Of a stretch of 50,105 nt of DNA, positions 26,198 through 43,875 are shown one piece after another. Every line of letters begins with the position of its first letter. Within the stretch, counting starts at the first letter, position 1. A model generated the notes under the pieces. That model saw only the letters and a program-made list of their open reading frames with translations, did not search any database and was not told the DNA's origin. The position numbers were made by a program, and so were the translations under genes. The stretch is from Ralstonia sp. A12 (GTDB lineage: Bacteria; Pseudomonadota; Gammaproteobacteria; Burkholderiales; Burkholderiaceae): the NCBI RefSeq assembly GCF_000801955.1, contig NZ_JSZO01000039.1:1-50105 (forward strand), in the 5' to 3' direction.

Positions 26198-26229
26198 CGG
26201 CGCCGCAGATGGCGTGGCGCCGTGTTTTG
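26198..26229 (+). terminator. Rho-independent terminator after the autotransporter gene
   Basis: CGGCGCC (26198-26204), an 11-base loop, GGCGCCG (26216-26222), then TGTTTTGT. A strong 7-bp GC stem with a short T-tract, 14 bases after the stop codon. Confidence 0.7.
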
Positions 26230-26323
26230 TCAGGATGACCAACTCGTATCTGCCGGCTGCACGGTCTTCGTAGTGATTGCCCCTGCCTCGGCAGATGTCG
26301 CAGGCCAACAGACAGCGACAACC

Positions 26324-28015: not shown

Positions 28016-28080
28016 ATCGTTCCTCCGCATCGCACGAAAAGCCCGCTTTGCGTCAACCGGTTCGCAGACGGTGATGCCCC

Positions 28081-28971
28081 TCAGTTACCTGCGTTGTCTG
28101 TCGGAAAGCGGAACGAGTCTCGCAGCAGCAAGCTCATCGGAATACCGAGATTGACGTTGTTCGGCGGAATCGGCTGTTGGAACCACTTCTTGTACAGCCG
28201 CTCCGCTTCACCATCGAGGATGGTCTTCGTCATCGCCTCGTCAACCAGCTTCTTGAATGTCGGATCATTCTTGCCAAGCATGATGGCGTAGGGGACCACC
28301 TGCTGGCTCTTGCCGACGATCATGAAGTCCGCCGGATTCTTCGCATTGGCCCTCAGACCTGCAAGCAGCACATCATCCATCGCGAACGCCTGCGCCTTAC
28401 CGGACGCCACCATCGCAAATGCCTCGCTATGGTCGCTCGCTTCCACAACGGTGATGTTCAGGCGCCCCGCGTCGCTGAGCTGGCGCACCAGGTCACCATT
28501 CACGCTTCCTTGCGTCGATACAACGGTCTTGCCCCGCAGATCCTCCAACTCCTGGATGCCGGACGTCGCCTTCACCAGCATGCGGCCCTTGGCAAGGTAG
28601 TGCGGAATGGTAAAGGCGACTTTCTCGCGGCGCTCGCGCGCATTGTTGGTCGACGCGCACTCAAGGTCCGTCTTCCCGCTCATGATGGCGTTCATCCGCG
28701 TCGCCGGGGTGACCTGCACGTACTGGACCTGCAGGTCGGGCCGTTTGAGTTGCACACGAATGGCATCCACCAGTCGCATGCAGAGATCCATTGAATAGCC
28801 GACGGGCTTGCCGTTGGCATCCAGATACGAAAACGGCACCGAACTCGCACGATGTGCGAGACGAATCGTGCCGGTCTCGCGTATGCGATCCAGGGTCGGG
28901 CTGGCGGCGATTGCGTTGAGCGCGGTAAATGCAATGGCTGCTGTCAGCAACCTGCGAACAGAGGACAGCAT
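28081..28971 (-). CDS. ABC transporter amino-acid-binding protein (family 3, GltI-like)
   Basis: A 296-residue protein from ATG 28971 (a GTG at 28983 is possible). The signal peptide is LSSVRRLLTAAIAFTALNAI ending in AIAAS. The mature protein shows the SBP_bac_3 pattern: LDRIRETGTIRLAHRASSVP, FSYLDANGKPVGYSMDLCMR, VTPATRMNAIMSGKTDLECA, LRGKTVVSTQGSVNGDLVRQ and AFAMDDVLLAGLRANAKNPA. These match glutamate/aspartate-type receptors. The permease and ATPase genes are not next to it. A truncated, frameshifted paralog lies at 44298-44880. Confidence 0.83.
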   Translation of the reverse strand: MLSSVRRLLTAAIAFTALNAIAASPTLDRIRETGTIRLAHRASSVPFSYLDANGKPVGYSMDLCMRLVDAIRVQLKRPDLQVQYVQVTPATRMNAIMSGKTDLECASTNNARERREKVAFTIPHYLAKGRMLVKATSGIQELEDLRGKTVVSTQGSVNGDLVRQLSDAGRLNITVVEASDHSEAFAMVASGKAQAFAMDDVLLAGLRANAKNPADFMIVGKSQQVVPYAIMLGKNDPTFKKLVDEAMTKTILDGEAERLYKKWFQQPIPPNNVNLGIPMSLLLRDSFRFPTDNAGN

Positions 28972-28983
28972 GATGAAACTCAC

Positions 28984-29687
28984 CCGGTAATTTTTTTCTT
29001 TTTCAACAACAGAAGCCGACTGAAGAAGCCGAAGGCCTTCACCCGGCGGAACACATTGCGCTAAACACTAACGGCGAGTCCGTATCCTGCGGACTTGCGC
29101 ACGCGACGGCCGGCTTCCAAACTGCCTCTGAATCCGTGTTGGATCGATCAGTTGCCCGACCCTCAGGCTGCTCTCCATCACCAGATAGACGCCTACCCAC
29201 AGCATGGCGAGGGTGGGCAGCTTCTGAATGGATTGGCCCAGCGCCGCGCCCTTTGCGGTTTGCACGCCCGTCTGACACCGGACGGCTTGGACTCGGCCTG
29301 TCGCTTGTCTGTCCGGGCCGATACATTTCCGCTTGTAGGCGCCATCGGCTCTCACTCCCCGTACTTTCTTTTGTTTTGCTTGCGGGCCGTAAGCTAGCAG
29401 AACTGCCCGCCAATGAATCTCATTATTTATCAAATAAACAATTCTTAAGGCGGAAGGGCCGCCAAAGATTGCCGCGAACCAGATTGGCCGATTAAGGGGC
29501 ACGTGCACGCATTGAGACGCAGGTCTCGAGGATTTGCAAAGCCCACGGATAACCGCTGAGGCTGAGCATCGCAAGCACAACCCCTTGGGCTGGCACGCGA
29601 TTTACACTATCCTTGCGGCGAACAGCGCGTTCGTACACACGGTACGCTGATGCTGGGTGGTCCACTCACCTAGCACCAATTTCTCCT
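28984..29687. other. Intergenic region, possibly holding a decayed gene
   Basis: About 700 bases. On the minus strand a 170-residue frame (29068-29580) includes a hydrophobic LPTLAMLWVGVYLVMESSLR and a basic tail, which might be the end of a lost membrane protein, but the rest of the frame does not look like protein. The bases 29395-29450 are AT-rich (TTATTTATCAAATAAACAATTC) and may carry a promoter for a leftward transcript. Confidence 0.3.
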
Positions 29688-30098
29688 ATGGCGACCAAAG
29701 CTAAGATCGCAGTAAAGAAGGCGACCCCGAAGAAAGCCGTACCGGCAAAGAAGCCCGCCGCCGGTGCAGTGTCCGTCAAACCTCTGAAGGACACCTTCAC
29801 CAAATCCAGCCTCGTGAGCCATCTGGCCGAACAGGCCCAGGTCGACGCCAAAGCGGTCAAAGCGGTGCTGCTCCATCTGGAGAACACCATCGTCAGTGCG
29901 CTACACAAGAAAGGCGCCGGCGAATTCACGCTGCCAGGTCTCTTCAAGGTGGTGTCGGTGAAAGTTCCGGCCACCAAGCGACGTTTCGGCAAGAACCCGT
30001 TCACCGGGTTGGAGCAGTGGTTCGAGGCGAAACCGGCAACCGTGCGCGTGAAAGTTCGAGCGCTGAAGAAAGTCAAGGACGCCGCTCTGAACGGGTAA
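29688..30098 (+). CDS. HU/IHF-family DNA-binding protein with Lys/Ala-rich N-terminal extension
   Basis: A 136-residue protein from ATG 29688 (ATKAKIAVKKATPKKAVPAK). Residues 1-32 are Lys/Ala/Pro repeats like eukaryotic histone H1 or AlgP tails. The rest (about 33-130) is a bacterial HU/IHF fold: FTKSSLVSHLAEQAQVDAKA, KKGAGEFTLPGLFKVVSVKV, then the DNA-wrapping arm KRRFGKNPFTGLEQWFEAKP and VRVKVRALKKVKDA. It bends and compacts DNA and may act as a nucleoid or silencing protein. An H-NS-like gene lies 1.6 kb downstream. A hairpin with a T-run follows the stop. Confidence 0.88.
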   Translation: MATKAKIAVKKATPKKAVPAKKPAAGAVSVKPLKDTFTKSSLVSHLAEQAQVDAKAVKAVLLHLENTIVSALHKKGAGEFTLPGLFKVVSVKVPATKRRFGKNPFTGLEQWFEAKPATVRVKVRALKKVKDAALNG

Positions 30099-30109
30099 CC
30101 CACCACAAA

Positions 30110-30137
30110 GGAAGGGGGCCATCGCTCCCATTTTTTT
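30110..30137 (+). terminator. Terminator after the HU-like gene
   Basis: GGGGG, a short loop, CTCCC, then seven T residues (30131-30137). The stem is short (5 bp with one G-T pair) but the T-run is clear. It ends directly before the next predicted ATG. Confidence 0.55.
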
Positions 30138-30473
30138 ATGCTGAATCACGAAAAAGATGGCGCCGCCGAGCCACAGGACAGTGCACTGCCTAGCCTGACC
30201 GAACTTGCTACTGCCTTCGATTCCGCAGCCATACTGCTGACGCCAGCCGAAGCACATGCGATCTCGCAGGAACTACGCGCAGTTGTTCGCACACTGCAGC
30301 GAAGCGATCATTCTGGATCATCGCGTCGAACTGCCTCGGCGCAGGCACTCACGGCATCTGCACAAGGCAATCTGCTTTGTGAGCAGGATGCTCATGGGTT
30401 CTTGTCCGCTTCGCACCCCACCGATCCAACGCCGCCGCTATTTGTCCCACCGGACATCGACATCGTGCAATAG
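30138..30473 (+). CDS. Hypothetical protein
   Basis: A 111-residue frame beginning LNHEKDGAAEPQDSALPSLT, with a helical TELATAFDSAAILLTPAEAH and AISQELRAVVRTLQRSDH segment, then a Ser/Ala- and Pro-rich tail. The start follows a T-run with no visible ribosome-binding site, so either the true start is further in or a leaderless transcript begins here. The distribution of charged residues resembles the similar-sized gene at 31207-31518, perhaps a distant duplicate. Confidence 0.35.
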   Translation: MLNHEKDGAAEPQDSALPSLTELATAFDSAAILLTPAEAHAISQELRAVVRTLQRSDHSGSSRRTASAQALTASAQGNLLCEQDAHGFLSASHPTDPTPPLFVPPDIDIVQ

Positions 30474-30812
30474 GTGTCCGCTGAGGATGTAGTCACCCAA
30501 GGCCTGAGCTTTGGCCTCCAGCTTCTCCAGCTCGCCGGTCGGCAAGGCATTCAGGTCGAAATAGCAGTAAAGGTTGTGCTGACGGAACGTGGTTTTTGCC
30601 CGCGTGAGTCCGGCCACCAGCGCGGCCAGTGATTGAACGGCGATATTTTCCTGGCTGCGAAATTCCACTCGAATCCCAGCCTTCTAGCCCATGCGGCCCA
30701 ACTCCACGGCATCCTGCCAGCCGGTTTCGTAGTCCAATTCGATAACTGCGACTCCATCCACCTTCAGCAGCCGCAACGCTTCCTCTCGCGTACCAGCACG
30801 CGCTGTTGCCAT
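30438..30812 (-). pseudogene. Hypothetical gene interrupted by one amber codon
   Basis: From ATG 30812 the minus strand reads ATARAGTREEALRLLKVDGV and AVIELDYETGWQDAVELGRM, then TAG at 30684. It continues in the same frame KAGIRVEFRSQENIAVQSLA, ALVAGLTRAKTTFRQHNLYC and ALGDYILSGHLLHDVDVRWD to 30438. A single base change separates it from a full 124-residue protein. The family is unrecognised. A partial copy of its first 25 codons lies at 31540-31625. Confidence 0.55.
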
Positions 30813-31206
30813 CCCTTCCCCTACCCTTATTCGTGAGCGCGCACCAACCGCGTACTGCACCCGCCCTATTGTAGCCAGCCGGAATCGGTCGCTCCCTTGC
30901 GACTGTCGAGCCTTGTGCGGCATCAGCAAAGCGTCCCACCGGCAAGGCGCAATCACCGTGACAAATGTTCATCTTTTCTCAAGTGAAATTTTTTTACTAC
31001 AGATTATCAATCGGTAGCCGATTGCCTGAGAGCGGCCTCGCAGAGGGCAGCCGCCCAGACTGGCATCAATGCGCCCCAACACATGCGCTGTTCGAAATCA
31101 GCACAATAAGAATCGAAACGGGAAACTTCACTGCGACCACTCATTTGCACTGCGGGCCGCCCCCATCAGTTTCTTGCTTCCCGATTCTTCTCCCCGAAAA
31201 AGTCCC

Positions 31207-31518
31207 ATGACGACAAACAAGCACAACTCCGGCACAGAAAACGTAGAGGCTTACAAGCAAGTCATCGCGTCCAACGCCGAAGCGATATCCCGCTTTGGTG
31301 GGCGCCTTGCCGTTCTATACAAGTTCACAACTGCAGTCCTGCCACAGTTGGATTCCACTCAGCGAATCGAGGTGGCGCGGCGCCTACGGGCGGGTGTCGA
31401 TGATGTAATGTCCCTCACTGACGATATTGCCCTTCCCGGCGAGTATCACGACGCTCTACTGGCGCAAACCAATATCCTGCTGACGGCGCTCGAAACACAG
31501 AGCGCGAACCCACAATAA
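31207..31518 (+). CDS. Hypothetical helical protein
   Basis: A 103-residue protein from ATG 31207 (TTNKHNSGTENVEAYKQVIA). It is mostly helical: SNAEAISRFGGRLAVLYKFT, TAVLPQLDSTQRIEVARRLR and EYHDALLAQTNILLTALETQ. It has no Cys or Trp and a clean end. CCCCGAAAAAG upstream gives a weak ribosome-binding site. No family or partner is evident, though it sits between fragments of the same small gene. Confidence 0.5.
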   Translation: MTTNKHNSGTENVEAYKQVIASNAEAISRFGGRLAVLYKFTTAVLPQLDSTQRIEVARRLRAGVDDVMSLTDDIALPGEYHDALLAQTNILLTALETQSANPQ

Positions 31519-31539
31519 GAGTTATCTCCGCTTCGCAAG

Positions 31540-31625
31540 CCGGTACCACACCTGCGATGCCATCCGTCTTCAGCAGTCGCAACGTTTCCTCTCGTGTACT
31601 CGCACGCGCCGTTGCTTCCCTTCCC
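31540..31625 (-). repeat. Partial copy of the N-terminus of the gene at 30438-30812
   Basis: The minus strand encodes ATARASTREETLRLLKTDGIA, matching ATARAGTREEALRLLKVDGVA of the gene starting at 30812, after which the similarity stops. This indicates an ancient tandem duplication followed by decay of the second copy. Confidence 0.65.
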
Positions 31626-31656
31626 GATTCTTAACAACTCCCAGAGCATCTCTCCG

Positions 31657-31944
31657 TCATGCTCCAACTCGGAAGTGCTCCGGGCTCTGGCCAGCATTGA
31701 CGGCACGCCGTAGCCAATCCGGCATCTCGCCCTCTCCATCCCACGTTTGCCCATCAGCACTTCGGTATCGTGCCTTCGACGAAGCCCGACGACGCGCAGG
31801 AAAACATCCTGCCGCCGCCAGATCAGCATACATCAAGCCGTAGCGCGCAATCTGCGTACGGACCCAAGCGATAGCCTCGGCCCGTCGCCGCAACATCGCG
31901 GTGGGGCTGGACTCCATTACAGATAGATCGGCACGATTCGGCAT
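31657..31944 (-). CDS. H-NS-family nucleoid protein (short, C-terminal-domain type)
   Basis: A 95-residue protein; the ATG at 31944 (PNRADLSVMESSPTAMLRRR) is preferred, with an internal Met nine codons on as the alternative. The helical part AEAIAWVRTQIARYGLMYAD and LAAAGCF is followed by the H-NS DNA-binding core ARYRSADGQTWDGEGEMPDW, then LRRAVNAGQSPEHFRV. In the family the loop normally reads TW-x-GRGR-x-P-x-WL; here it is TWDGEGEMPDW, the acidic variant often seen in Ralstonia accessory regions. It would bind AT-rich, transferred DNA and silence it. It lies beside such a region (32.4-32.6 kb). Confidence 0.8.
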   Translation of the reverse strand: MPNRADLSVMESSPTAMLRRRAEAIAWVRTQIARYGLMYADLAAAGCFPARRRASSKARYRSADGQTWDGEGEMPDWLRRAVNAGQSPEHFRVGA

Positions 31945-32619
31945 GTTGCAGAGCGCTTGGTACGAAGGAGAGGTGCATACGGTCCGTGCGTCAATGGATG
32001 TCCCAATGTTGCGCACATACGCCATTTTGCGCCAGACCATACCACCCTCGCCGCAGTTGATCATCCAGCATACGTGCACTGCGGGATGGCTACTGTCCGC
32101 TGGCCACCATTGGTGTAATGATTGATATCGAATGCCGCTTGATCGCTGGCCGGGGGGCAGCCCCAACCATCAAAGCGCTAACGCCCAGGGCCGTCGGCGC
32201 GTGGCCGCGTCTGGCACTGCACTTCCGCCGCTAACAACCAACGATGGTGATTGCTGACGCAGGCCATCGACTGCGGCTCCAAGTTCTCTGCCTGCCCTTT
32301 CCTGCCTGAAATCTTCTGCTCCGTGCGCGGGCGGATTCAACGCGCGGCTATGGCGATCGCCCGGTCAGTTAGCCCAGGCATGCGGGGCACGCTGGCTGAT
32401 CCGGAAGTAACTACTGAAGTAACGAAATTTCAATAGCGATAAGGATGTCGCATTATTAGTCTGCTGATGAAAACTAAATTTACAAACGAAAAATGGAGTG
32501 GGAATTTAATGAAGATTTTTTCATAAATCCAATGGATTAGATCATTTTGTCGCCGCCTCACGAAATCTTGTGGAGTGGCGTGATGACGTGTGCCCTTATT
32601 TCAATATCGGAGACTTATC
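31945..32619. other. Intergenic region with an AT-rich promoter-like segment
   Basis: No gene is supported between the H-NS-like gene and the next. The last 200 bases (about 32410-32600) are strongly AT-rich (GATGAAAACTAAATTTACAAACG, AATTTAATGAAGATTTTTTC), unlike the surroundings, and probably contain the promoter of the gene at 32620. An AT-rich block like this is also a natural H-NS binding region. Confidence 0.4.
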
Positions 32620-33516
32620 ATGAGCAACAATATCTCGCAACTCAATGATTTCGTTACCTGGCTTGATCGGCACGAGAACATCAGCCCCTCGGCGGAGAGT
32701 CAGCGCACGCTGTCTCTCCTAGCGACGCCATCCGCTGCAGGCAGCCCTAGCGTGTCCGGACAAAATTCCATCCCTTCGGGAAACGGTGCTCCGGAAGCAT
32801 CGAAACAGGGCAATGCGCTGGATGAAGCTGTCCGCAAGGGAGACAAACAGACGATAGTGGACCTGCTCACCCAATCGACCGCCAATGCGGTATCGAGCAT
32901 CTTGGGCTTGTCACAAACGCGTTCGGGGTGGAACCCTCTTGACCCGACCGAAAAAGAGAATGCCCAAGGCTTCCAGCGGTTCGTCGAGCAAATCTTGAAA
33001 GTGCCGTATTTCAACACGACCCAGGCGGAGACGAAGACCGTCCATTACCAAGAGTCGAACTACAATTCGCTCATTGATAAGGTGGTCGATCTGTACGATG
33101 GCGTGACCCAGCAAGATAAGGAAAAAATCAAGCGGAGCATTGTCAACCTGGCCAAGGCATGCACCAGCCGCGTGAACCAAAAGAATACGCAGACGCTGTT
33201 TGTGCAGAACACGATGCACGCGCCGGGCAACAGTCGCAACATTGTTGTTCAACTCGCCCAGACCTTCATGATGATGGAGCTTGATCACCGAACCGGCAAG
33301 GGCGCGCCGCAGGATCAGTTCAAGACCGAAATCTCGGTTCGGGTTCTGGAACTGACATTCCAAGGCGACATCTGGGACCGTAGCGCTGCGGAAAAGCTTG
33401 CCGCCAAATTCGTACAGAGCTGGGATGACTGGCTGAATGACTCGACGACCCCGCCGTCGCCTCAACAGCGGAAGATCGCATTCTGCTTCAGCCCGCGAGA
33501 GATCGCCTCAGTCTGA
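32620..33516 (+). CDS. Unknown protein, probably horizontally acquired
   Basis: A 298-residue protein from ATG 32620, preceded by ATCGGAGACTT (GGAG). It has no signal peptide. The N-terminus (SNNISQLNDFVTWLDRHENI, then a Ser/Pro-rich linker to about 65) is followed by a helical globular domain: LDEAVRKGDKQTIVDLLTQS, NAQGFQRFVEQILKVPYFNT, YNSLIDKVVDLYDGVTQQDK, IVNLAKACTSRVNQKNTQTL and a closing VRVLELTFQGDIWDRSAAEK. I do not recognise the family. The gene is visibly less GC-rich than the neighbouring genes, follows an AT-rich leader and ends in a good terminator, so it looks like a self-contained acquired unit. The Ser-rich N-terminus would suit a secreted effector, but no hrpII box is present. 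Confidence 0.6.
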   Translation: MSNNISQLNDFVTWLDRHENISPSAESQRTLSLLATPSAAGSPSVSGQNSIPSGNGAPEASKQGNALDEAVRKGDKQTIVDLLTQSTANAVSSILGLSQTRSGWNPLDPTEKENAQGFQRFVEQILKVPYFNTTQAETKTVHYQESNYNSLIDKVVDLYDGVTQQDKEKIKRSIVNLAKACTSRVNQKNTQTLFVQNTMHAPGNSRNIVVQLAQTFMMMELDHRTGKGAPQDQFKTEISVRVLELTFQGDIWDRSAAEKLAAKFVQSWDDWLNDSTTPPSPQQRKIAFCFSPREIASV

Positions 33517-33545
33517 TTCGGTCGCTTTTTGTCTTTCCGTAGTAG

Positions 33546-33576
33546 GCCGGCTGTGTATCTGCATAGCCGGCTGCTT
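33546..33576 (+). terminator. Terminator after the unknown gene
   Basis: GCCGGCT (33546-33552) and AGCCGGC (33565-33571) form a 7-bp stem followed by TGCTTT. It is placed 30 bases after the stop codon. Confidence 0.6.
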
Positions 33577-33729
33577 TACTGTCTATGGTGACCATCAGCC
33601 CGCGAAAATTCCTCGTTGTGGCCTCGCCAGTTGAGGCGCGGCAACTTCAAGGTCCAGAAACGTCGTGGGAAGCGCATCGCCAAACAGTCATGGATGGCAC
33701 AACTTGCCGGCCCACACTCACCGACTTGC

Positions 33730-33993
33730 TCATCTCTCCGGAGGATCTTCAAAGAAGCCGCAGAGCCCCAAGTAGGCACGCAACTTTCCAGGCGTTTCGG
33801 CAAGTGCGTGATAAATGCTGGTCTCCCAGATTTCCCCGACTCGATAGCCGTATTCATTTTCAAAGACAACGGCAACCTTGCTGTCTCGGTCTGCGAGCTG
33901 CGCCTTGAGGATTTCCCACGCGACTTCCAGGGATTCACCGTCCTCGAACTCACTTACGTGCTCACCTACGGCAATACGCACAATGTTTGCCAT
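33730..33993 (-). CDS. Hypothetical small protein
   Basis: An 87-residue protein from ATG 33993 (ANIVRIAVGEHVSEFEDGES). Later segments LEVAWEILKAQLADRDSKVA, VVFENEYGYRVGEIWETSIY and LRAYLGLCGFFEDPPER give a compact alpha/beta protein, acidic overall. A longer frame on the opposite strand covers the same bases but lacks protein character. It stands alone, and no function can be assigned. Confidence 0.5.
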   Translation of the reverse strand: MANIVRIAVGEHVSEFEDGESLEVAWEILKAQLADRDSKVAVVFENEYGYRVGEIWETSIYHALAETPGKLRAYLGLCGFFEDPPER

Positions 33994-34332
33994 TACTGTT
34001 CCTACGTGGACGACTCGGCCGAGATGATACAGGCTTGGTTTCCTTGCTATCGCAGCGCGTGAGAGTGCCTCTGGGTGACAGTCGCGCGCAGCAGGGCTGA
34101 CGAATTCGCCACCAGCGCTGCATCGAGCATAGTTACTGCCCCAATCATGGCGGCTTTGTTTGCTGACGCTCCATTGTGATCGACCGTGGGCACCATGCCC
34201 GCACGCCCAATTGAGTCATACATCCAGAGATAGGACGGAGATGGTTCTGTGACCCCGGAAGTATCCGAGACGCGCGCCGTCAGGCGACTGGCCTGCTTCG
34301 TGTCGGCGCATACGCTCGTCGCCAGCCCTTCG

Positions 34333-34548
34333 ATGGAACCACTGAATGAAGTTGAGGCGGCTGAACTAGCCCGCGCGTACTATGAAGCGTGGAACGCGTG
34401 GGGAAAGCCAGTGGACACGCACCACAAAGGGCTAGCAAAACTGCTGTACGGCGATCGACCCGCTCATCCAGGGCTCCTTGCCCAAGCGCTCAAAGCTTCG
34501 CTGGAAACGTACGCGCCTGGCTGGCGCCTCTACATCACCGGCGGATAA
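34333..34548 (+). CDS. Hypothetical small protein
   Basis: A 71-residue protein from ATG 34333 (EPLNEVEAAELARAYYEAWN); the frame is open back to 34249, so a longer form is possible. Middle and end: KPVDTHHKGLAKLLYGDRPA, HPGLLAQALKASLETYAPGW. Helical, possibly a small regulatory or partner protein. It ends about 340 bases before the three-gene module, in the same direction; any link is unproven. Confidence 0.4.
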   Translation: MEPLNEVEAAELARAYYEAWNAWGKPVDTHHKGLAKLLYGDRPAHPGLLAQALKASLETYAPGWRLYITGG

Positions 34549-34886
34549 AGGCTAGCCCAGAACACTACGCATCAATCCGGCAATCCGCTGCGGCTGGGCT
34601 TGGCCGTCCGCAAGCCGCTCCCCTTCATGGGCTGACTGCTTTGCCAGTCGATCAGCACAACTCGGACCAGTGGATCAGTATCATTGCCGCCCGCTCTGCA
34701 CAACTCTTGTGGCACACACAAGCTCTGACCGCATGTCGCTCTACGTCAGCGCGTCAATACGCCACGTCCAGGAATGTGGGCTCCTGCGGGTTGCACTGGA
34801 GTTACGCTGCAACTGCGTGCGACATACACGTAGGTCTTACAAACCAGTGCTATATTCCCTGTTCCCCTCTCATTTGGACATTCCGA
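34549..34886 (+). promoter_or_regulatory. Upstream region of the three-gene module, with an extended -10 promoter
   Basis: The region has no supported gene. At 34848-34856 TGCTATATT matches an extended -10 (TG-n-TATATT), about 30 bases before the first ATG of the module at 34887. No clear -35 hexamer is seen, as is usual for extended -10 promoters. There is no obvious operator. Confidence 0.45.
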
Positions 34887-35684
34887 ATGATCCACTACCG
34901 GGACCGCGCGGTGTCGATCGTAGTGCTCGGTGAGTTCGCGCCGGCGCGTTTTCATCCTGAATGGTTCCTACGGAATCATTTGATGACTAGTGACGACCTC
35001 GGCGATGTGGTAATCGCCATGGTCGGCCCTGGAGCTACTCAGTGGACGCACCCACGCTTCGGCGATTTCCTTGCGCTCCCCGATCGCGTATCGCTCACTT
35101 GCAAGATCGAGGCGCTTTGGATGGTCGCTCGCGATCTTGTTGAAGGAATCATCGGCCTTGACGCAGGCAACGCCATCCGGGCATTGGGGATTAACCTGCA
35201 CATGGTTGCGGTTCTCGAAGACGACGATGCGAATCCTGGCGTATGGAATGCCCTTGGGGACGTGCTTGCCCCGAAGGAGCTTTGGCGAGAAGCCTTGGCT
35301 CTCCCTGACAAAGACGGCTTCCCGGGACTGGAAGGTATCAAGCTGGCCGTTCCAGATCCCGACCTGATCGGATCGAAGCGTGTATTTGCATTCGAGCCTG
35401 ACTTGGCTACCGTGTACAACCTCGCTATTCTCGTTAATAACCACTTTGACATTACTCGAGCCTGCATATCCAGACAGGTGGGCGAGACTGAAGCTAACGC
35501 AACTGACGTTACGGATTCTCTGGGGCTCAGTCAGGCCGAACTCTCGATGCAGTTGCTCTTCGAGCGATACGAAACGGCAATATCCGATTCCAGAGAGCAA
35601 ACAGAAGCAATTCTGTCTGCTGCGGTGAAACAAGCGCGGCTATCTGCGGTGATTATCGAAAAACGACGAGCGAAGGAAAATTGA
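34887..35684 (+). CDS. First protein of an MBL-fold three-gene module, unknown family
   Basis: A 265-residue protein (IHYRDRAVSIVVLGEFAPAR). The N-terminal 180 residues form a compact alpha/beta domain: FHPEWFLRNHLMTSDDLGDV, VSLTCKIEALWMVARDLVEG, IIGLDAGNAIRALGINLHMV, EVWNALGD-like NPGVWNALGDVLAPKELWRE, then YNLAILVNNHFDITRA. From memory, the pattern FxPxWF ... ALGIN ... W-x-x-LG-x-x-LAPK is shared by uncharacterised proteins in mobile regions, usually beside a protein like the next gene. The C-terminal 60 residues (LGLSQAELSMQLLFERYETA and following) are a helical tail, possibly for assembly. There is no signal peptide, so it is cytoplasmic. One base separates it from the next gene. Its role is unknown; sensor or regulator is a guess. 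Confidence 0.65.
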   Translation: MIHYRDRAVSIVVLGEFAPARFHPEWFLRNHLMTSDDLGDVVIAMVGPGATQWTHPRFGDFLALPDRVSLTCKIEALWMVARDLVEGIIGLDAGNAIRALGINLHMVAVLEDDDANPGVWNALGDVLAPKELWREALALPDKDGFPGLEGIKLAVPDPDLIGSKRVFAFEPDLATVYNLAILVNNHFDITRACISRQVGETEANATDVTDSLGLSQAELSMQLLFERYETAISDSREQTEAILSAAVKQARLSAVIIEKRRAKEN

Positions 35685-35685
35685 T

Positions 35686-36330
35686 ATGCTGAACGCCACA
35701 ATTCCCCAAGCTGATAGCGTAGCGACATCTTCCTTGCCGAACGTATTTCCACTGGATCGATATTCCTACAACGAATTAGCCTCGATTGACATTGATCGTT
35801 TCGGGGGCAGCGCACTTGAGGTACTTGTCCCCTCCGTTAAAAAAACAGCGCCGAAGATAGCCGCATTACATCTTCCCGCAGCGGTGTACACAACGATTGC
35901 ACAATGGGTAGGTTCAGTCGAAGAGGTTCTTTCTGACGGTAGCCTTGTCGCTCATCTTCGTGCGCTCTCACTCGTGGGGCATGCTGCGCCACCTTCGTCC
36001 GAAGGGTTCGAAGAGTGGACAACGATTCCTAGGTCGCAGATCGAGCCCGAAGATATTCGCTATGCGCGAGCAGGGGCCACCTTTTATATGACGGTCGTAA
36101 AGGAGAGACGTCAAGGCGCACTGCTTGGCGGAACTTCGGTAGTTATAGTCTTTCGTAAGGTGCCCGTTTGGAACCGGTCGCAGGTAGAGCTCTACCGTCA
36201 GCGAGCTGCCGAACTGTTTGCCAAAATCCATGGGGAAGACAAATCGAAGGTTTTGACCAACGACCGGCCTAGGCCTGAACTATCTGTTCCTGAAAAACCA
36301 AGATCTGTCCGAGTGACCATCCATAAGTGA
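35686..36330 (+). CDS. Second protein of the three-gene module, unknown family
   Basis: A 214-residue protein (LNATIPQADSVATSSLPNVF), with start codon ATG 35686 directly after the previous stop. The N-terminal half contains a segment like TIAQWVGSVEEVLSDGSLVA. Then comes a beta-rich domain: TIPRSQIEPEDIRYARAGAT, FYMTVVKERRQGALLGG and VVIVFRKVPVWNRSQVELYR. The order SQIEPED, AGATFY and FRKVPVW is, as far as I can recall, a recurring uncharacterised motif set found beside proteins like the previous one. It is cytoplasmic. The stop overlaps the GTG start of the MBL gene (AAGTGATCG), so translation is coupled. I infer that it works in a complex with its neighbours. Confidence 0.62.
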   Translation: MLNATIPQADSVATSSLPNVFPLDRYSYNELASIDIDRFGGSALEVLVPSVKKTAPKIAALHLPAAVYTTIAQWVGSVEEVLSDGSLVAHLRALSLVGHAAPPSSEGFEEWTTIPRSQIEPEDIRYARAGATFYMTVVKERRQGALLGGTSVVIVFRKVPVWNRSQVELYRQRAAELFAKIHGEDKSKVLTNDRPRPELSVPEKPRSVRVTIHK

Positions 36331-37433
36331 TCGCGACTTTTGGCGGCGCTCCCGAGCCCGACACAAACGAAATAACCACTTTCGGGAAAGGCTTCGGAGA
36401 GGCAGTCGTCCTACATCGCCGGGGCGAGTGGTTCATTATCGATTCGTTCTACGACGAACCAGTAAGCGACAAAACTCCAATAGCGGCGCGATATTTGGAT
36501 GAACTCGGCGTCCCTGCAAGCGCGGTGAAAATCATCGTGGCAACGCACTGGCACGATGACCACACGCCAGGTGTCTCCCAGCTTTATGAGCGCTACAGCA
36601 ATAGCAAGTTTGCTTGCGCAGCCGCGCTTACGACGCAGGAATTCCTTGCCTTGGCTGAGTCAACAGGCATCGCATATTCAGGCTCGCTAAAGCAATCTCG
36701 CCTCGCCGAATGGCGAAAATTATTGTCGGCCAATGATTTCCCGGGGCGACTATTGTCTGTATCTGCGGGGACAAGTATTTGGCGGACTCAGGCAGACGAT
36801 TTCGAGCTCTATGCTCTCAGCCCGTCTGGCGCGGAAGGACTGCGAATGCAAAAGGCTATCGCGCAGATGCTCCCGCAAAGCGGTTCCCAGCAATTGCCTC
36901 CGCCAAAACGAGGTTTGCCGAACCACGCTGCGATCGCCATCGTTGCGCGATTTGGGCGCATGTGTGTGCTTTTGGGATCAGATTTGGAGGTTAGCAATAT
37001 TCCAGGATGCGGTTGGGGCGGAGCCATTTCGCATTTCACGAGCCAAATCTCGACTTGGAAGTCTTTTCTATTCAAGGTCGCACACCACGGCAGCGTTACA
37101 GCGCATGATCAATCGATCTGGAAACATGCACTGGAGAACAAGCCAATATCTGTCCTAACTCCTTTTATCAATGGGAGCGTCAGATTACCGACGTCTGATG
37201 ACGTGTCACGGGTAAAAAGGCTGAGCAGCAATCTACTACAAGCGTCTGTTCAGAAAGTCCAGCAAAAGACCGCCAATTCGACCGCCCAGACGATTCTGAA
37301 TCGTGTTGGCATCAAGGTGCAAAGGTACAGGCCAAGTTTGGGCGCTGTTCGCGTTCGATGGAAAGACGGCATCGACGGCATCGACGTCCAGTCATTAGGG
37401 AGTGCTCTGGAAATAACGGGCCATAAGAGTTGA
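36327..37433 (+). CDS. ComEC/Rec2-type metallo-beta-lactamase-fold hydrolase
   Basis: A 368-residue protein with GTG start, overlapping the previous stop by four bases. Metal-binding motifs of the MBL fold are complete: THWHDDH (His74, His76, Asp78, His79), the second-site Asp219 in VLLGSDLE and His253 in KVAHHGS. NHAAIAIVARFG before the GSD motif is the ComEC-type arrangement, where the domain is a nuclease or phosphodiesterase. No transmembrane segment or signal peptide is present, so it is a stand-alone cytoplasmic enzyme. The C-terminal 100 residues (LSSNLLQASVQKVQQ and following) are basic and may bind nucleic acid. It is the only clear enzyme of the module, and the likely effector if this is a defence or conflict system. 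The substrate is unknown. Confidence 0.8.
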   Translation: MIATFGGAPEPDTNEITTFGKGFGEAVVLHRRGEWFIIDSFYDEPVSDKTPIAARYLDELGVPASAVKIIVATHWHDDHTPGVSQLYERYSNSKFACAAALTTQEFLALAESTGIAYSGSLKQSRLAEWRKLLSANDFPGRLLSVSAGTSIWRTQADDFELYALSPSGAEGLRMQKAIAQMLPQSGSQQLPPPKRGLPNHAAIAIVARFGRMCVLLGSDLEVSNIPGCGWGGAISHFTSQISTWKSFLFKVAHHGSVTAHDQSIWKHALENKPISVLTPFINGSVRLPTSDDVSRVKRLSSNLLQASVQKVQQKTANSTAQTILNRVGIKVQRYRPSLGAVRVRWKDGIDGIDVQSLGSALEITGHKS

Positions 37434-37910
37434 TTCGCGCATCGCGCGGCGTTGATGTTGCGAAATCGAGCGTAAGGACGCAGTAGTCGTCACGACGCCG
37501 GGACCCGCTGACCAACAGACGGTGGTATGAAGCCCCTTTTTATTGGCGTAGTTAGGTGGGATCGAGCGGTCGCTTGTCGGGTGGAAGCGGTCGCTCACAT
37601 GTCCAAGTGGCGGCCTCCTAGGACGACGCATCATGGCCGAACTCAGCCTGTGGGTCGGCCCTTGAGGTGCTTTCCCAGGGATCGGCGATGAACCGTTTTT
37701 ATGCGCAGCGCGGACGCAAATCACACGCCGATCCCCACCATTTGTAACACCGCCTGGCTTCAGTGCCTTGCGCAGAAAACGCTCAACCCGTTGATTTGTA
37801 AGCGGAATAGGGCACTACAGATCCTTACAATTTAAAACGGTATCCAACCGGACGATCGACCAAACTTTCTCCATCAACAGACCACATGCACTGGTCACGG
37901 GAGAACGAAG
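37434..37910. other. Intergenic region
   Basis: About 480 bases without a supported gene. The minus-strand frame 37395-37724 overlaps the MBL gene end and has an Arg/Pro-rich composition unlike a real protein. I could not recognise repeats, an attachment site or an RNA gene. The last 20 bases hold GGGAGAACGAAG, a ribosome-binding site for the next gene. Confidence 0.35.
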
Positions 37911-38642
37911 ATGAACAACACGCAACCGAACACTCAGGGTCAACAATATGCCGGCGCGTCGCTGGGCCAAGTGCCGCAGTCGCGCCGCATGCATCCGCTG
38001 ATGGCCGGTGCTGCCGTCGCGGTGATCATCGCAAGCGTGACGGCCGTGGCCGCCATCACTGGCGTGCTGCCCACCTCCAAGGCCACGCAGGGCAGTACCA
38101 ACCCGAACGTTGCCGCACAATCGGCCTCCGCACCGCTGGCGCTGGCTGCGCCCGGCCAGACGGCGGTGCCGAATCAAGCGGCCCCGGCCTATCCGGCACA
38201 GCCGAACGCGGTGCGGCACGCAGTGCATCACCCGGCACCGTCGTATGCGGAACGTACCCCTTCGTCGAACGCTGACTACGCACAAACACAGCCACGTCCG
38301 GCAGCCAACCCGTATGCCGGTCAGGTGACCGCAGTCACACCGATCACCACGCAGCAAGGCAACGAAACCGGTCTGGGCATGATCGGAGGTGCAGTGGTGG
38401 GTGGCTTGCTGGGCAACCAAGTCGGTAAGGGCAATGGCCGCACGCTGGCGACCGTCGCGGGCGCGGTCGGCGGCGGCTATGCAGGCCATGAAGCGGAAAA
38501 CTACTATCACCGCGACACGTCCTACAACGTCAGCGTGCGCATGGACAACGGCGCCACCCGCACCTTCACATATAAGGCAGCACCGGGCTTCCAGGTGGGC
38601 GACCGCGTGCATGTGGAAAATGGGAGCCTGGCAGCGGGCTGA
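37911..38642 (+). CDS. Glycine-zipper 2TM-domain membrane protein (SlyB/17-kDa-antigen type)
   Basis: A 243-residue protein from ATG 37911 (NNTQPNTQGQQYAGASLGQV). An N-terminal membrane segment, MHPLMAGAAVAVIIASVTAV, is near residue 27. A long Ala/Pro/Gln-rich periplasmic linker (about 60-145) leads to the glycine-zipper 2TM motif LGMIGGAVVGGLLGNQVGKG and TLATVAGAVGGGYAGHEAEN, then a C-terminal beta domain (YNVSVRMDNGATRTFTYKAA). Such proteins stabilise the envelope or outer membrane. There is no lipobox, so it is anchored by the N-terminal helix. It appears intact and stands alone. Confidence 0.85.
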   Translation: MNNTQPNTQGQQYAGASLGQVPQSRRMHPLMAGAAVAVIIASVTAVAAITGVLPTSKATQGSTNPNVAAQSASAPLALAAPGQTAVPNQAAPAYPAQPNAVRHAVHHPAPSYAERTPSSNADYAQTQPRPAANPYAGQVTAVTPITTQQGNETGLGMIGGAVVGGLLGNQVGKGNGRTLATVAGAVGGGYAGHEAENYYHRDTSYNVSVRMDNGATRTFTYKAAPGFQVGDRVHVENGSLAAG

Positions 38643-38743
38643 TCGCCACACGCTGCTACAAGCAGGCCTTCGAGGCTAAGGCGGTTCAGCTAAGCACCGC
38701 CCTGCTTTGCAGAGAGTCAGAAACAAACAAGAAGGCCGCTCCG

Positions 38744-39953
38744 TGAACTGCACCCCAAAAGTTGGACATCTGTTCAACCTTTGGGGTGTTTTTCATGGCG
38801 AAGTATGAAGAGGCGTTCAAGCGCCAAGTAGTTCAGGAGTATTTGAGGGGGCCACTTGGGACTGCAGGGCTGAGCCAGAAGTACGGGGTAGGCCGCACTG
38901 TGATCCGGCGCTGGATCAACGTGTGGCAGCGCCACGGGAAATCTGGACTACGCAAGAAGCATGAAGCGTATAGCGCCGAGTTCAAGCTGGCGGTGCTGCA
39001 GCGCATGTGGCGCGACGAGTTGTCCTATCAGCAAGTCAGCGCGGTGTTCGATTTGCGTGAGGCTGGCGGCGTCAGCCGCTGGGACCGCCAGTATCATGAG
39101 GGCGGTTTCGACGCCCTAAAGCCGCGCCGCAAAGGCGGAGCACCCATCATGTCCCGGTCCAAGCAAGATCCCCAACCCGCTATGCAGCCGGCTCAAGACG
39201 AGCGCTCGCGCGAGGATTTGCTCAAAGAAAACGAGTGTCTGCGCGCGGAGGTGGCGTACCTAAAAAAGTTGGATGCCCTGCTGCGGGCCAAACAGCAGCA
39301 GGCCCCAAAGAAAAAGCGCAAGTCGTGAGTGCGCTGCGTGAGCGGCATTCATTGTCGAGTTTGCTCAAGGCCGCGAATCTCGCACGCAGCACGTACTACT
39401 ACCAGATGGCGACAAGCCAGGCAGAGGATCGCCACGGCGCGCTCAAGGAGCGCATTCAGCACATCTATGCGCAGCACATCTATGCGCAGCACAAGGGCCG
39501 GTATGGCTACCGCCGGATCACGGCGACACTCCGTCGGGCAGGGACGTTGGTGAATCACAAGACCGTACAGCGATTGATGTCGGCGCTACAGTTGAAGTCA
39601 CTCGTGCGGCCGAAGAAATACCGCTCTTACCTCGGGCTAGTCGGGCGGGTCGCTCCCAATCTGCTACAGCGCGAGTTTGAGGCGAGCAAGCCGAACGAGA
39701 AGTGGGTAACGGACGTGACGGAGTTCAACGTTGACGGCAAGAAGCTGTACCTGTCGCCCGTCTTGGACCGGTACAACGGAGAGATTGTCGCCTGGCAAAC
39801 CAGTGAACGGCCTGATTACACGTTGATCCGGGAAATGCTCGACAAGGCGTTGCGCAAGCTGCGTCCTTGCGAAACGCCGATGCTGCATTCGGATCAAGGC
39901 TGGCCGTATCAAATGGCAGAGTATCGTCGCAAACTTGCCGCGCAAGGCCTGCG
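38744..39953 (+). mobile_element. IS3-family (IS150-like) element, 3' truncated
   Basis: The left terminus TGAACTGCACCCCAAAAG is at 38744. OrfA is intact; OrfB is lost after the AAQGLRQ codons (about 39953), before the catalytic Glu. A 15-base tandem duplication lies inside OrfB. The sequence on the right of the break is unrelated. Confidence 0.8.
38795..39328 (+). CDS. IS3-family transposase OrfA (two helix-turn-helix domains)
   Basis: A 177-residue protein starting AKYEEAFKRQVVQEYLRGPL. The first helix-turn-helix is GLSQKYGVGRTVIRRWINVW (about residues 26-45) and the second QQVSAVFDLREAGGVSRWDR (about 77-96), followed by a coiled coil EDLLKENECLRAEVAYLKKL and a Lys-rich end. This two-domain layout is normal for the IS150 group. 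The GAAAAAG near its end is a possible -1 frameshift site into OrfB. Confidence 0.85.
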   Translation: MAKYEEAFKRQVVQEYLRGPLGTAGLSQKYGVGRTVIRRWINVWQRHGKSGLRKKHEAYSAEFKLAVLQRMWRDELSYQQVSAVFDLREAGGVSRWDRQYHEGGFDALKPRRKGGAPIMSRSKQDPQPAMQPAQDERSREDLLKENECLRAEVAYLKKLDALLRAKQQQAPKKKRKS

Positions 39954-39960
39954 CCAGCCT
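39325..39960 (+). pseudogene. IS3-family transposase OrfB, truncated
   Basis: In the -1 frame from OrfA it reads ALRERHSLSSLLKAANLARS, GRYGYRRITATLRRAGTLVN, KWVTDVTEFNVDGKKLYLSP (first catalytic Asp) and MLHSDQGWPYQMAEYRRKLA (second Asp), then departs from the family before the catalytic Glu. The segment HIYAQHIYAQH is a duplicated pentapeptide where relatives have one copy. Inactive. Confidence 0.78.
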
Positions 39961-40271
39961 CGTCGTCGGGCACCTACTCGCCTACCACATGCTCGGTGCA
40001 AGACCAGCGTGCTGATCGACAACCGGCTTCTCACGATCGTGAAACGAAGGCCCCCCTTTTCAACTGCCGCTCACGTTGTAGGGGGCCGGTGGGAACTAGA
40101 CGACAGTGGCGTCGCTCTTTGAGAAATCGTATTGATGGCTGGCGACAGTGTGAGGGTTACTCACACCAACTAGCGATTTCAGTTGCTGCGCAAGGGCAAG
40201 TGAAGTTCCGATAGGCACAACCGTCAGCCCCTCTTCAATGGCGGCGTTTACTTGGTGAAACCCTTCGGCCC
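39961..40271. other. Junk between the IS and the minor-pilin operon, with a strong hairpin
   Basis: The frame continuing from OrfB is nonsense. GGCCCCC at 40050-40056 and GGGGGCC at about 40080-40086 can pair, forming a perfect stem that might terminate either flanking transcript. A minus-strand frame (40096-40287) reads DALSVRAEGFHQVNAAIEEG and could be a small gene behind the pilin operon, but support is weak. Confidence 0.3.
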
Positions 40272-42185
40272 TCACAGATAGCGCGTCCATACAACACTGA
40301 CCGAAGGCGTGCCGTTCGAACCACCAGTCGTTTGATTCGGGATCTGGCCAGGATTGAACGTGGAGGGCAGTTGGCTGACATCGATCGTCGTGCTCGCCCC
40401 CCAAGCCGACCCAGAGGAATTTCCGCCCTGGTTGGCGACGGTGATGTAGCCCTGGATCGATGTACTGCCGCCTGTGGAGAGGATGCCACCCGCCAGAATG
40501 TCGCCGAAGATGCTGTTGGATGCACCCAGCGAGATGTTGCCGCCGGAGAACGTGTTGTTCTGGTAACCACCGGCCAGCAGCGCAACGTTGCCGATGGCGC
40601 TAGGCGTGTAGGCACCGGCCGAGCAGAAATTCGTCGGATACAGTGCTGGGAATGCCGCATTGCTACATTGCTCGCTGGCCCCACCATAGTTGAGTGCATG
40701 AACGACCGTACTACCACTTGTGGTGATGTTGCCTGTCGCTATCACGGTGTTTTCGTACGTACCGACACCCAGATTCAGGTCACCGTGGAACCACACCACG
40801 CCTGGCGCCATAGTCGCGCCGTCGGTTTTCCATGCGCCGTTGACGTACGAAAAACAGCTGTTGTAAGCAGAGAACCCGTTGCAGATCTTCGCCACGCATT
40901 GATTGGCGTTGTACGTCTTGGTAGTGCATAGCCAATCCTGGTTGCCGTCGCTGCCCGTCAAATAGTACGTACCGTCTGGAATCGTGTTGACGTTGGAAAC
41001 CGTGACCTGCATGTTGTTTTGCGCATCGACATCAAATACATAGTTGGCTGCGCTCTTGAGCGGCCAAGCGTCAATAGTCGCGGTCTGAATAGAAGCCAGT
41101 GTGAGCGGGGTTAGCGATACGGGCGACCAGGGGCTTTGCGTGACATGCACCTTACTGCCGTTCCACGAGGGAATGGACACGGAGCCCCCCACGGTACCGT
41201 TGCTGACACTCCCCCCGCTGCTCGATTGGGTGAAATTGCCCTGGGCATTCAGGGTTGTGATCGTGCCCCCATCCTCCAGCACATTGCCCTGCGCGTTCAA
41301 TCTCGTGATCGTGCTACTCGAAGTATTCGCATCACCATAGGTACTGATGGTATCGACCTGGGAACCCGGTCCCACCTTCACGCCCCCGATGGCGTTTATT
41401 TTGGTCACATTGTCGCTGCTCACCAATGTGGTCAACCCATTGCTAGTGATGGTCCCTACGGTAATACGGTTGCTGACCATCACGTTTTTCATCGACTTGA
41501 CCTCCATGTATTGACCGGTCGCGTTGATGTTGACGTCGCCCTGCGCGGCAACTACGTTGGCGCTGGCGCCGCCATTCAGGTTGATCGTCCCGGTTGCATA
41601 AAGCAAATTGAAACCACCAATGCTGCCGGACGAAGTGATGTCACCATTGACCATGAAACTCGTACTGCCCGTAGTCCCAGCATTAGCCTGTACCGAACCG
41701 GTCAACTGCAGATTGCCGTTGATGTTGATCATGTTCGACAGCGTGGCGGTAGCCGACGATGCGCTGCCGACACAGTAGACGCTTTGCACCGTGGCATTGG
41801 CGCCGCCACTCGTGCCCGTGATGTTGGCCGTAATCTGAGTACCTTTCTGGCATGCGGAAGTGTTGGCCTGCGCTTGCACGACCGTACCCGAGATACCGCT
41901 CATACCGGAAAGCGCTATTGCGCTACCTGCCGTCGGTAGCTGCGATGTTCCGCTCACCTGATACAGATATTGACGGAAGGCATCAACGCCGTTCCATGCC
42001 TTCATCTGAGCCTGCGTGAGCGCATGTGTGGTTCGGGAAACATCCTGGGTGCTGCGAATGTAGTGCATGGTGCCTAACGCGGCGACGGACAGTGCCATGC
42101 CAACGATCAACACCACCTGAATTGCAGCAATGCCACGTTGCCTGCTCTTGAGGCAGGAGGAGCGATATGGAGCAGACATGGTCAA
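40272..42185 (-). CDS. PilX-like minor pilin with a large beta-rich C-terminal domain
   Basis: A 637-residue protein from ATG 42185. The class III-type leader ends RQRG (cleavage before Ile) and the membrane helix follows (IAAIQVVLIVGMALSVAALG). Position 5 of the mature chain is Gln, not the usual Glu, as in tip-located pseudopilins such as GspK. Behind the pilin part (to about 150) come long runs of short repeating strands (MININGNLQLTGSVQANAGT, AQGDVNINATGQYMEVKSMK, NAQGNVLEDGGTITTLNAQG, LLAGGYQNNTFSGGNISLGA), a beta-helix-like fold reminiscent of polymer-forming or adhesin domains, with paired cysteines in CVAKICNGFSAYNSCFSYVN. It is the last gene of the minor-pilin operon, directly behind pilW (stop and start adjoin). 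Probably a pilus-tip adhesin; PilX proteins are usually about 200 residues. Confidence 0.75.
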   Translation of the reverse strand: MTMSAPYRSSCLKSRQRGIAAIQVVLIVGMALSVAALGTMHYIRSTQDVSRTTHALTQAQMKAWNGVDAFRQYLYQVSGTSQLPTAGSAIALSGMSGISGTVVQAQANTSACQKGTQITANITGTSGGANATVQSVYCVGSASSATATLSNMININGNLQLTGSVQANAGTTGSTSFMVNGDITSSGSIGGFNLLYATGTINLNGGASANVVAAQGDVNINATGQYMEVKSMKNVMVSNRITVGTITSNGLTTLVSSDNVTKINAIGGVKVGPGSQVDTISTYGDANTSSSTITRLNAQGNVLEDGGTITTLNAQGNFTQSSSGGSVSNGTVGGSVSIPSWNGSKVHVTQSPWSPVSLTPLTLASIQTATIDAWPLKSAANYVFDVDAQNNMQVTVSNVNTIPDGTYYLTGSDGNQDWLCTTKTYNANQCVAKICNGFSAYNSCFSYVNGAWKTDGATMAPGVVWFHGDLNLGVGTYENTVIATGNITTSGSTVVHALNYGGASEQCSNAAFPALYPTNFCSAGAYTPSAIGNVALLAGGYQNNTFSGGNISLGASNSIFGDILAGGILSTGGSTSIQGYITVANQGGNSSGSAWGASTTIDVSQLPSTFNPGQIPNQTTGGSNGTPSVSVVWTRYL

Positions 42186-42956
42186 TCAGGTGGTGAAGTT
42201 CGGAAGGCAGGACAACCATGAGCCGGAGCCAGTCTTTGTGGCCCAATTCATTTGGATTTGCAGACCTGCGGTGTTCTGGCTTGCATTGGAGATGCCTTTC
42301 TCGGACCCAATTTGCGCCGACAGGGTTGTCGAGGGCATTTCCGAGCCGTAGGGCCAGCATGGACTGTTGTGCACAGCGGTCGCCCCGAAAGTAACGGGCG
42401 CCGGCAAAGCGATGTCAGCGACCAAGCGGGTGATGGTCCATTGTTGTGTCGCCCAGCTTGTGGGAAGTGGATCACATGCGCCGGCCGCCTGCAGCCAATA
42501 CAGCGCCCCCGTCGTCTGATTAGAGACCAAGCCCTGGCAAGACCATGCTGCGGTGGAAGAGGACTGCGTGGGATTGCTTTCCCAGAAGATCGCGTTGCCG
42601 GTAGTGCTGGTCGAGCCGATGGTTTGCAGCGTGGTGCCGGTGGTTTGAAGCGTGCTCGTGCCACCCGCTCCACTCAACACAAGACCGCTGACGAGAACGA
42701 AATTCGTGTTGACGGTGGGCGATGCTATGCCAAAGCCGGCACCCTGCAACATGTTCTGGGCGGTCAACAAGGCGCTCGCTACCTGCCGATCCTGGATGGC
42801 ACGCGGCTGCATGCCAGAATCCTTGTCGAACACATTGCGCGACACCGCGCGAAACAGGCCAAGCATGGCCAGGATGGCCAGCAGGGAGATGATCTGCCCT
42901 ACCATCAAACTGATGAGCGATATGCCCTGCTGACGCGTACGAAAATGGAATGCCAT
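42186..42956 (-). CDS. PilW-like minor pilin
   Basis: A 256-residue protein from ATG 42956 (AFHFRTRQQG, then the mature ISLISLMVGQIISLLAILAM). The leader, the cleavage after Gly and the helix fit a type IV minor pilin, but residue 5 is Ser instead of Glu. The soluble part (FDKDSGMQPRAIQDRQVASA, LLTAQNMLQGAGFGIA, then Ser/Thr-rich strands) resembles PilW. It lies 2 bases after the PilV-like gene and adjoins the PilX-like gene, so one transcript is likely. PilW helps start pilus assembly and primes the tip. Confidence 0.78.
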   Translation of the reverse strand: MAFHFRTRQQGISLISLMVGQIISLLAILAMLGLFRAVSRNVFDKDSGMQPRAIQDRQVASALLTAQNMLQGAGFGIASPTVNTNFVLVSGLVLSGAGGTSTLQTTGTTLQTIGSTSTTGNAIFWESNPTQSSSTAAWSCQGLVSNQTTGALYWLQAAGACDPLPTSWATQQWTITRLVADIALPAPVTFGATAVHNSPCWPYGSEMPSTTLSAQIGSEKGISNASQNTAGLQIQMNWATKTGSGSWLSCLPNFTT

Positions 42957-42958
42957 GA

Positions 42959-43423
42959 CTATTGGCCCGCGTTCTGGAACAGCAGGGAGGTACTTCCCAT
43001 TCTTTTGTCCGAAACCTCATAGGCGAGGACAGGAACCAATACGGACTTCGAGGTCGCACCGACACTGACGGTCAGTTGCTGGTAAGCGCATTTCAGGGTG
43101 GTTGGCGCAGCAGTTCCACCAATCACGACGGCTGCCTTGTTGGAACTACCGTCGCTTGCGTTATCGCCATTCCCTTGCCCAGAGTTTTTGGAGTTCAACG
43201 CTGCCGCATTGGCGCAAACCGAGTTCATACCCTGCGTCTGCAATTGCGAGCGCAACTGGGTCACGGCTTGGTTTTGTGCGCCGAGTGTGGCCTGCCCCAC
43301 GGCGGCCCGACTCAAGGTAAATGCCATGCCCACGCCAACGATCGCCGTCAAGATGACCGAGATCAACGACTCCACCAACGTACTGCCCGATTGATGGGAC
43401 TTAGTTAAGGATGCCAGAAGCAT
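42959..43423 (-). CDS. PilV-like minor pilin
   Basis: A 154-residue protein from ATG 43423, reading LLASLTKSHQSG, then STLVESLISVILTAIVGVGM. Cleavage follows Gly, with Glu at position 5 of the mature chain. The soluble domain has a Ser/Gly/Asn-rich loop (LNSKNSGQGNGDNASDGSSN) and Cys in SVCANAA and LKCAYQQ that may pair. It overlaps the FimT/GspH-like gene by 23 bases, so translation is probably coupled. The second pseudopilin of the tip complex. Confidence 0.78.
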   Translation of the reverse strand: MLLASLTKSHQSGSTLVESLISVILTAIVGVGMAFTLSRAAVGQATLGAQNQAVTQLRSQLQTQGMNSVCANAAALNSKNSGQGNGDNASDGSSNKAAVVIGGTAAPTTLKCAYQQLTVSVGATSKSVLVPVLAYEVSDKRMGSTSLLFQNAGQ

Positions 43424-43868: not shown

Positions 43869-43875
43869 GGTGCCA

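Follow-up and report, generated by a model that had tools for sequence, protein, structure and literature searches.

Our analyses indicate that three adjacent genes, here called g1, g2, and g3, form a real conserved unit across very distant hosts. We propose that this trio is a mobile conflict system, most likely directed against phages or plasmids, in which g1 and g2 would control a DNA nuclease without the involvement of a protease, a reading to which we assign a probability of roughly 0.55. In the window analyzed here (the whole stretch of 50,105 nucleotides), all three genes lie on the forward strand: g1 at 34887-35684 (ATG start, 265 aa), g2 at 35686-36330 (ATG start, 214 aa), and g3 at 36327-37433 (GTG start, 368 aa). 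As the initial annotation had pointed out, the genes are tightly coupled, with a single base separating g1 from g2 and 4 bases shared by g2 and g3, and they are poorer in GC than their surroundings (0.536 in the trio vs. 0.596 in the window outside 31950-37630); of 476 equally sized windows, counting that of the trio, 0.6% have GC this low. The reading frame of g1 stays open upstream of its start to 34389, and the alignable part of its homologues starts near 34887. The extended -10 promoter proposed upstream of g1 fared less well: the weak candidate element TGCTATATT is present on the forward strand at 34848-34856, but 13 instances of the loose pattern TGNTANNNT are found on that strand of the window, and a sigma-70 scan of 34200-37900 returned zero sites.

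Support for the trio as a fixed unit comes from loci collected by means of g3. Searching IMG/VR with a three-row profile of g3 yielded 30 loci, several of them near-duplicates, and g1 and g2 stand directly upstream of g3 in all 30 of these viral-contig loci. Among GTDB species genomes, a 24-row g3 profile gave at least 591 candidate stretches, and the best 80 of the 113 relatives among those listed make up our set of genome loci; in 73 of these best 80, g1, g2, and g3 follow each other on one strand and in one order. Five of the seven loci without a recognized g1 end at a contig edge (L043, L048, L056, L071, and L096), and g1 was not seen at L078, with 1.1 kb left before the contig end, or at L112, with ~8.5 kb left. 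In the 60 loci with all starts assigned, intergenic gaps of -30 to +12 bases separate g1 from g2 in 49 and g2 from g3 in 59, the single large gap (1163, in L059) stemming from the start picked for a long open frame. On plasmids, tblastn with g3 found two relatives, one in Adhaeribacter swui (Bacteroidota) and one in Pantoea agglomerans, with 30-31% identity; in each case, the two genes before it are annotated as hypothetical and can be aligned with g1 and g2. By record title, the hosts include Pseudomonadota, Bacteroidota, Actinomycetota, Nitrospira, Chloroflexota, Acidobacteria, and one Thermoplasmata MAG; because most are MAGs, some of these assignments may be wrong. The conserved mobile module with a ComEC-type metallo-beta-lactamase (MBL) protein that had been postulated from the window is thus recovered in the viral contigs and the genome loci alike. 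In two of the IMG/VR loci, L020 and L034, the contig ends inside g3.

The reverse search, starting from g1, gave the same picture. Five of 398 genomes of the phylum, the window's included, carry g1, and g2 and g3 are adjacent to it in all five; g2 occurs in these five genomes and in a sixth, G500, where the contig stops right after g2 and an upstream g1 was not recognized. In a sample of 185 genomes of the class, g3 scored above 300 bits in four, each with g1 and g2, and all other matches stayed below 37 bits; the g3 family is therefore sharply bounded. Among 247 Bacteroidota genomes, g1 was matched in three: the centre genome with its known trio, a contig-edge copy beside g2 and a g3 fragment, and a chance-like match of 20 bits. 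In 39 genomes chosen as g3 carriers, a set biased towards carriers of the trio, g1 was found in 37, with 38 strong places and three fragment matches. Next to each strong g1 match in these searches stand g2 and g3, the latter in whole or in part, and nowhere in the genome surveys did g1 and g2 occur routinely without the MBL gene or in a housekeeping context. A second complete trio (L184) is present in genome G972.

The three proteins have also diverged together. Over 84 non-redundant trios, the median pairwise identity is 26% for g1, 22% for g2, and 32% for g3, and the window proteins share at most 28%, 26%, and 34% identity, respectively, with any relative among them. The distance matrices of the same 84 trios correlate with a Mantel r of 0.792 for g1-g2, 0.849 for g1-g3, and 0.807 for g2-g3, against a permutation maximum of 0.175. 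This co-variation shows joint inheritance, as expected of any operon, and is no proof of contact.

The genomic surroundings of the trio are those of mobile DNA. In the window, it sits in an accessory stretch (31950-37632) with no counterpart among the matches listed in 15 other genomes of the genus, for each of which up to 18 candidates were scored, and g1 is absent from all 15. From ~37633 onward, matches return in the form of a block of which the window's own genome also has multiple copies; in two relatives, 8.0 and 1.6 kb were taken on the left side of this shared block, and neither piece matched window positions 25001-37684. Of 5426 E. coli genomes, 14 carry a trio with 99.7-99.8% identity to locus L015, and a more distant search matched 17 of 5426, adding F5, SX45, and Ec-U1. 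In all five E. coli regions viewed, the trio lies between the holin and antiterminator Q genes on the opposite strand, a site that is a prophage cargo position. The RefSeq product of the E. coli g1 protein (WP_000143147.1) reads 'anti-phage protein' in 2 of the 14 genomes and 'hypothetical protein' in the other 12; the accompanying g2 protein is WP_001024069.1. The prophage, plasmid, and accessory contexts, together with this product name, fit the role in anti-phage or inter-element conflict that the initial annotation had suggested, which is in this respect partly supported. The name 'anti-phage protein' is an annotation label, and its source was not found.

The patchy spread of g1, in 5 of 398 genomes of the phylum and in none of the 15 other genus genomes, fits a mobile module. 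It also bears on the idea of an operon for DNA uptake or processing, in which g3 would act as a ComEC nuclease in trans, g2 would bind single-stranded DNA, and g1 would serve as a scaffold. ComEC is indeed the nearest solved relative of g3, and the model of g2 contains an OB-like domain, but a distribution this rare and patchy, the prophage cargo slot of the E. coli copies, and the presence of just one ComEC-family competence protein among 150 sampled flank proteins (with 25 of 124 Pfam families listed) make such a function very unlikely in our judgment.

These flank proteins were drawn from 520 called within 5 kb of the trio at 65 genome loci (47,464 aa). The control of 123 proteins (47,018 aa) came from 17 of these genomes, each sampled at another place over a single 10-kb stretch. 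At 1e-10, 148 PADLOC families were matched in the trio flanks vs. 54 in the control, counts that refer to redundant models and not to proteins, since one protein can match many models. Among the matches listed, flank families include PtuA (E 2.4e-118), HmaA, HmaB, HmaC, and PbeA, and control families include C3a139 (E 7.4e-107), Orf5, SspE, and DrmD. Ten of the first 25 flank families listed model a single protein type, PtuA. The expected enrichment near defence genes is therefore visible in the counts, but it is suggestive only. The 25 of 124 flank Pfam families listed comprise three phage integrases, two resolvases, and two Eco57I methylases, along with ordinary metabolic genes.

Judged by its sequence, g3 is a stand-alone protein of the MBL fold and of the ComEC nuclease type. 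The window protein matches Pfam Lactamase_B (E 1.8e-8), and the ComEC nuclease domain is the best PDB relative of the family profile (E 1.7e-10). The complete metal site reported by the initial annotation is borne out by 90 g3 sequences (84 once near-duplicates are taken out), in which H74, H76, D78, H79, D219, H253, and H254 are 100% conserved; E25, D39, E128, P166, N199, W230, and K250 are likewise invariant, and S256 is conserved in 97%. Of 77 genome loci, 76 encode a g3 of 352-415 aa, and the remaining one (L066) is split; the length of g3 and its profile both agree with the predicted absence of a membrane part. With the nuclease domain of ComEC/Rec2, g3 shares the metal-site layout N...G/A-D-L-E...K-x-x-HHGS. 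It differs in reading HxHxDH where the ComEC sequences compared read HxDxDH, in being a separate protein, and in having longer segments with the invariant residues E128 and W230. The segment from HxHxDH to N/ADLE is ~44 residues longer than in the ComEC domain and combines parts of variable length (33-51 and 26-41 residues) with the invariant E128 and P166. In PADLOC, the window g3 matches RTasMBL, LmuA, and Avs1a partially and weakly (best E 1.6e-4), and no component of the window trio matches a full-length model; RTasMBL and LmuA are each matched by 23 of 24 g3 proteins, RTasMBL with E-values down to 1.5e-17. These relationships suggest that g3 is a DNA nuclease.

Another MBL activity, the hydrolysis of a cyclic nucleotide in the manner of Apyc1, would make g3 an enzyme of counter-defence or signal degradation with g1 and g2 as its carriers. 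The window g3 does match Pfam Anti-Pycsar_Apyc1 (PF23023) weakly, as well as PDB 7u2s (E 0.044); its 16.6 bits, however, fall far below the curated cut-off of 50, the family profile ranks ComEC first with 7u2s at E 0.031, and g3 is unmatched in 50,697 phage records, so we regard this activity as highly improbable.

The other two proteins have little resemblance to known families. Neither g1 nor g2 of the window matches Pfam or PADLOC, and the single NCBIfam match of g1 is sub-threshold (13.7 bits vs. 55). For 86 g1 members, Pfam and NCBIfam returned only scattered single matches at chance level, among them the sporadically distributed family TIGR04255, matched by 1 of 86 at E 0.038, which is far from a curated match and may be chance. 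For 82 g2 members, DUF7239 is the sole Pfam family found in more than one member (six; best E 0.018, chance level). By these comparisons, g1 appears to represent a new family. The motifs first noticed in the window do recur, as the initial annotation had expected of both proteins: conservation is at least 91% at P19, P24, W26, D83, G101, N103, P129, and N184 of g1 and at least 90% at G76, D123, and F133 of g2. The motifs of g1 are FxPxWF, ALGIN, LAPK, and N-x-H. The predicted structure of g1 consists of a beta-alpha domain (domain pLDDT 91.7) followed by a long C-terminal helix, and that of g2 begins with ~60 low-confidence residues, probably a disordered tail, followed by a small OB-like beta-barrel (residues 66-158). 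Both look like binding proteins more than peptidases. Pfam matches of the 86 g1 and 82 g2 proteins include neither peptidase nor caspase families; the fold lists of g1 and g2 also lack a caspase, an absence that proves nothing in such lists.

We therefore considered how g3 might be controlled. Because no protease was found in g1, g2, or the annotated neighborhoods viewed, g3 is most likely controlled by binding. In the mechanism that we propose, g3 would be the effector, a DNA nuclease of the ComEC/HamM/CanC type that depends on metal and is held inactive until needed, and g1 and g2 would jointly be its sensor and regulator. The OB-like barrel of g2 with its tail, together with the beta-alpha domain of g1, may bind a signal of foreign origin, either nucleic acid or protein, upon which the pair would license g3 through binding or release and not through proteolysis. 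Active g3 would then degrade the DNA of the invader or, should it lack selectivity, that of the cell itself, leading to abortive infection. We infer the resting-state inhibition of g3, the identity of the sensing partner, and defence itself from the features described above. A more far-reaching version, which we offer tentatively and hold to be somewhat doubtful, is that the trio is a so far undescribed immune system of prokaryotes at large, whose ComEC-type nuclease is switched on by the binding of an obligate pair of new-family proteins that sense foreign nucleic acid.

Proteolytic gating as in HamM or CanC would require a protease that is encoded elsewhere or hidden in g1. Consistent with such a pro-nuclease, g3 falls in the same broad group of MBL proteins and carries a segment longer than that of ComEC, with parts of variable length. 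Yet besides the Pfam results for g1 and g2, no protease was recognized by Pfam among the window neighbors or annotated beside the trio in the two plasmids and five E. coli regions, one strict trypsin pattern (used without a positive control) had no match in loci L003-L114, and the invariant E128 and P166 in the longer segment are unlike a purely disordered gate. We accordingly consider a hidden protease improbable.

A different kind of control is conceivable if g3 were a constitutive nuclease toxin held in check by g1 and g2, the trio being an addiction module of prophages and plasmids with phage resistance as a by-product. Translational coupling, the position of the presumed toxin gene last, and the association with mobile elements would all agree with this, as would the tail of g2, which has low predicted confidence and is probably disordered; such tails are reminiscent of antitoxins. 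On the other hand, very distant hosts keep three genes, and not two, in a fixed order, the model of g1 shows a large, well-folded domain (pLDDT 91.7), and several loci are on large chromosomal contigs, where addiction is less needed. A toxin-antitoxin function is thus unlikely in our view, and signal degradation, DNA uptake, and a hidden protease rate below it.

The conflict system with binding-controlled g3 that we favor can be set against defence operons with related nucleases. According to PMC12799240, several immune systems of bacteria use trypsin- or caspase-type proteases to gate MBL pro-nucleases, among them Canu (KaeCanABC), a three-gene operon with a caspase-activated MBL nuclease in which CanC is the ComEC-like MBL nuclease and CanB an auxiliary gene without known function. 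Canu, as described there, resembles the trio in its three genes, ComEC-like MBL nuclease, auxiliary gene, and mobile or defence-island contexts; its first gene encodes a caspase with an Ig-like fold, whereas g1 has a predicted beta-alpha domain and no peptidase match in Pfam. The trypsin-MBL modules of HamM, Avs1a, Lamassu, and DRT contain MBL proteins of the same broad group as g3, as the RTasMBL and LmuA matches show, but g1 and g2 include no recognized trypsin-like protease, helicase, STAND, SMC, or RT protein. We keep the trio apart from the protease-nuclease modules because their protease was sought and not found. With g3 in the ComEC-type nuclease group, the trio may nevertheless work like these MBL-nuclease defence operons.

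We found no description of the trio in the literature searched, which included passages of PMC12799240, PMC13092281, PMC9519451, PMC13190303, PMC7159879, and PMC12724215; a tested E. coli member may exist, and Brenes and Laub (2025, Cell Host Microbe) may describe one. If our proposal is correct, binding would be a second way of gating a ComEC-type MBL nuclease, beside the protease activation described in PMC12799240. It would also provide functions for two protein families unmatched by Pfam and PADLOC. The trio is directly testable because intact copies are present in E. coli prophages, that of strain ECOR29 among them.

In all five E. coli prophage regions viewed (L146-L150), the trio, i.e. 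the g1-g2-g3 operon, lies on the opposite strand and fills the gap between the holin gene and the gene for antiterminator Q; this gap is likely a hotspot for other cargo.

Elsewhere, two loci carry a g2-g3 pair in which g1 is not recognisable despite upstream room of 1.1 kb (L078) and about 8.5 kb (L112), respectively; these loci are possibly two-gene variants or carriers of a diverged g1. Genome G972 has two full trios, the second g1-g2-g3 set being located at C1:3229000-3234500 (L184). In genome G959, the intact g1 has a decayed neighbour copy about 2 kb away, a g1 fragment interrupted by an in-frame stop (C1:997461-997652).

In the window, the accessory stretch 5' of the trio contains two ORFs (32590-33516 and 33730-33993) for which the Pfam search gave no match. 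Downstream, about 200 bases separate the end of the trio from the start of a block (37633-38743) that includes a gene for a glycine-zipper 2TM protein (37911-38642), and this block has 72-84% matches in 15 of 15 other genomes of the genus as well as further copies elsewhere in the window's own genome (72-88% match). Also shortly 3' of the trio is an IS3-type transposase encoded in two overlapping frames with HTH_28 and rve domains (38762-40122). The minus strand then carries a series of ORFs (40272-44825), two of which were checked against Pfam and had no match; within this run, 41371-44275 has a counterpart with 74% identity on contig C38 of the same genome.
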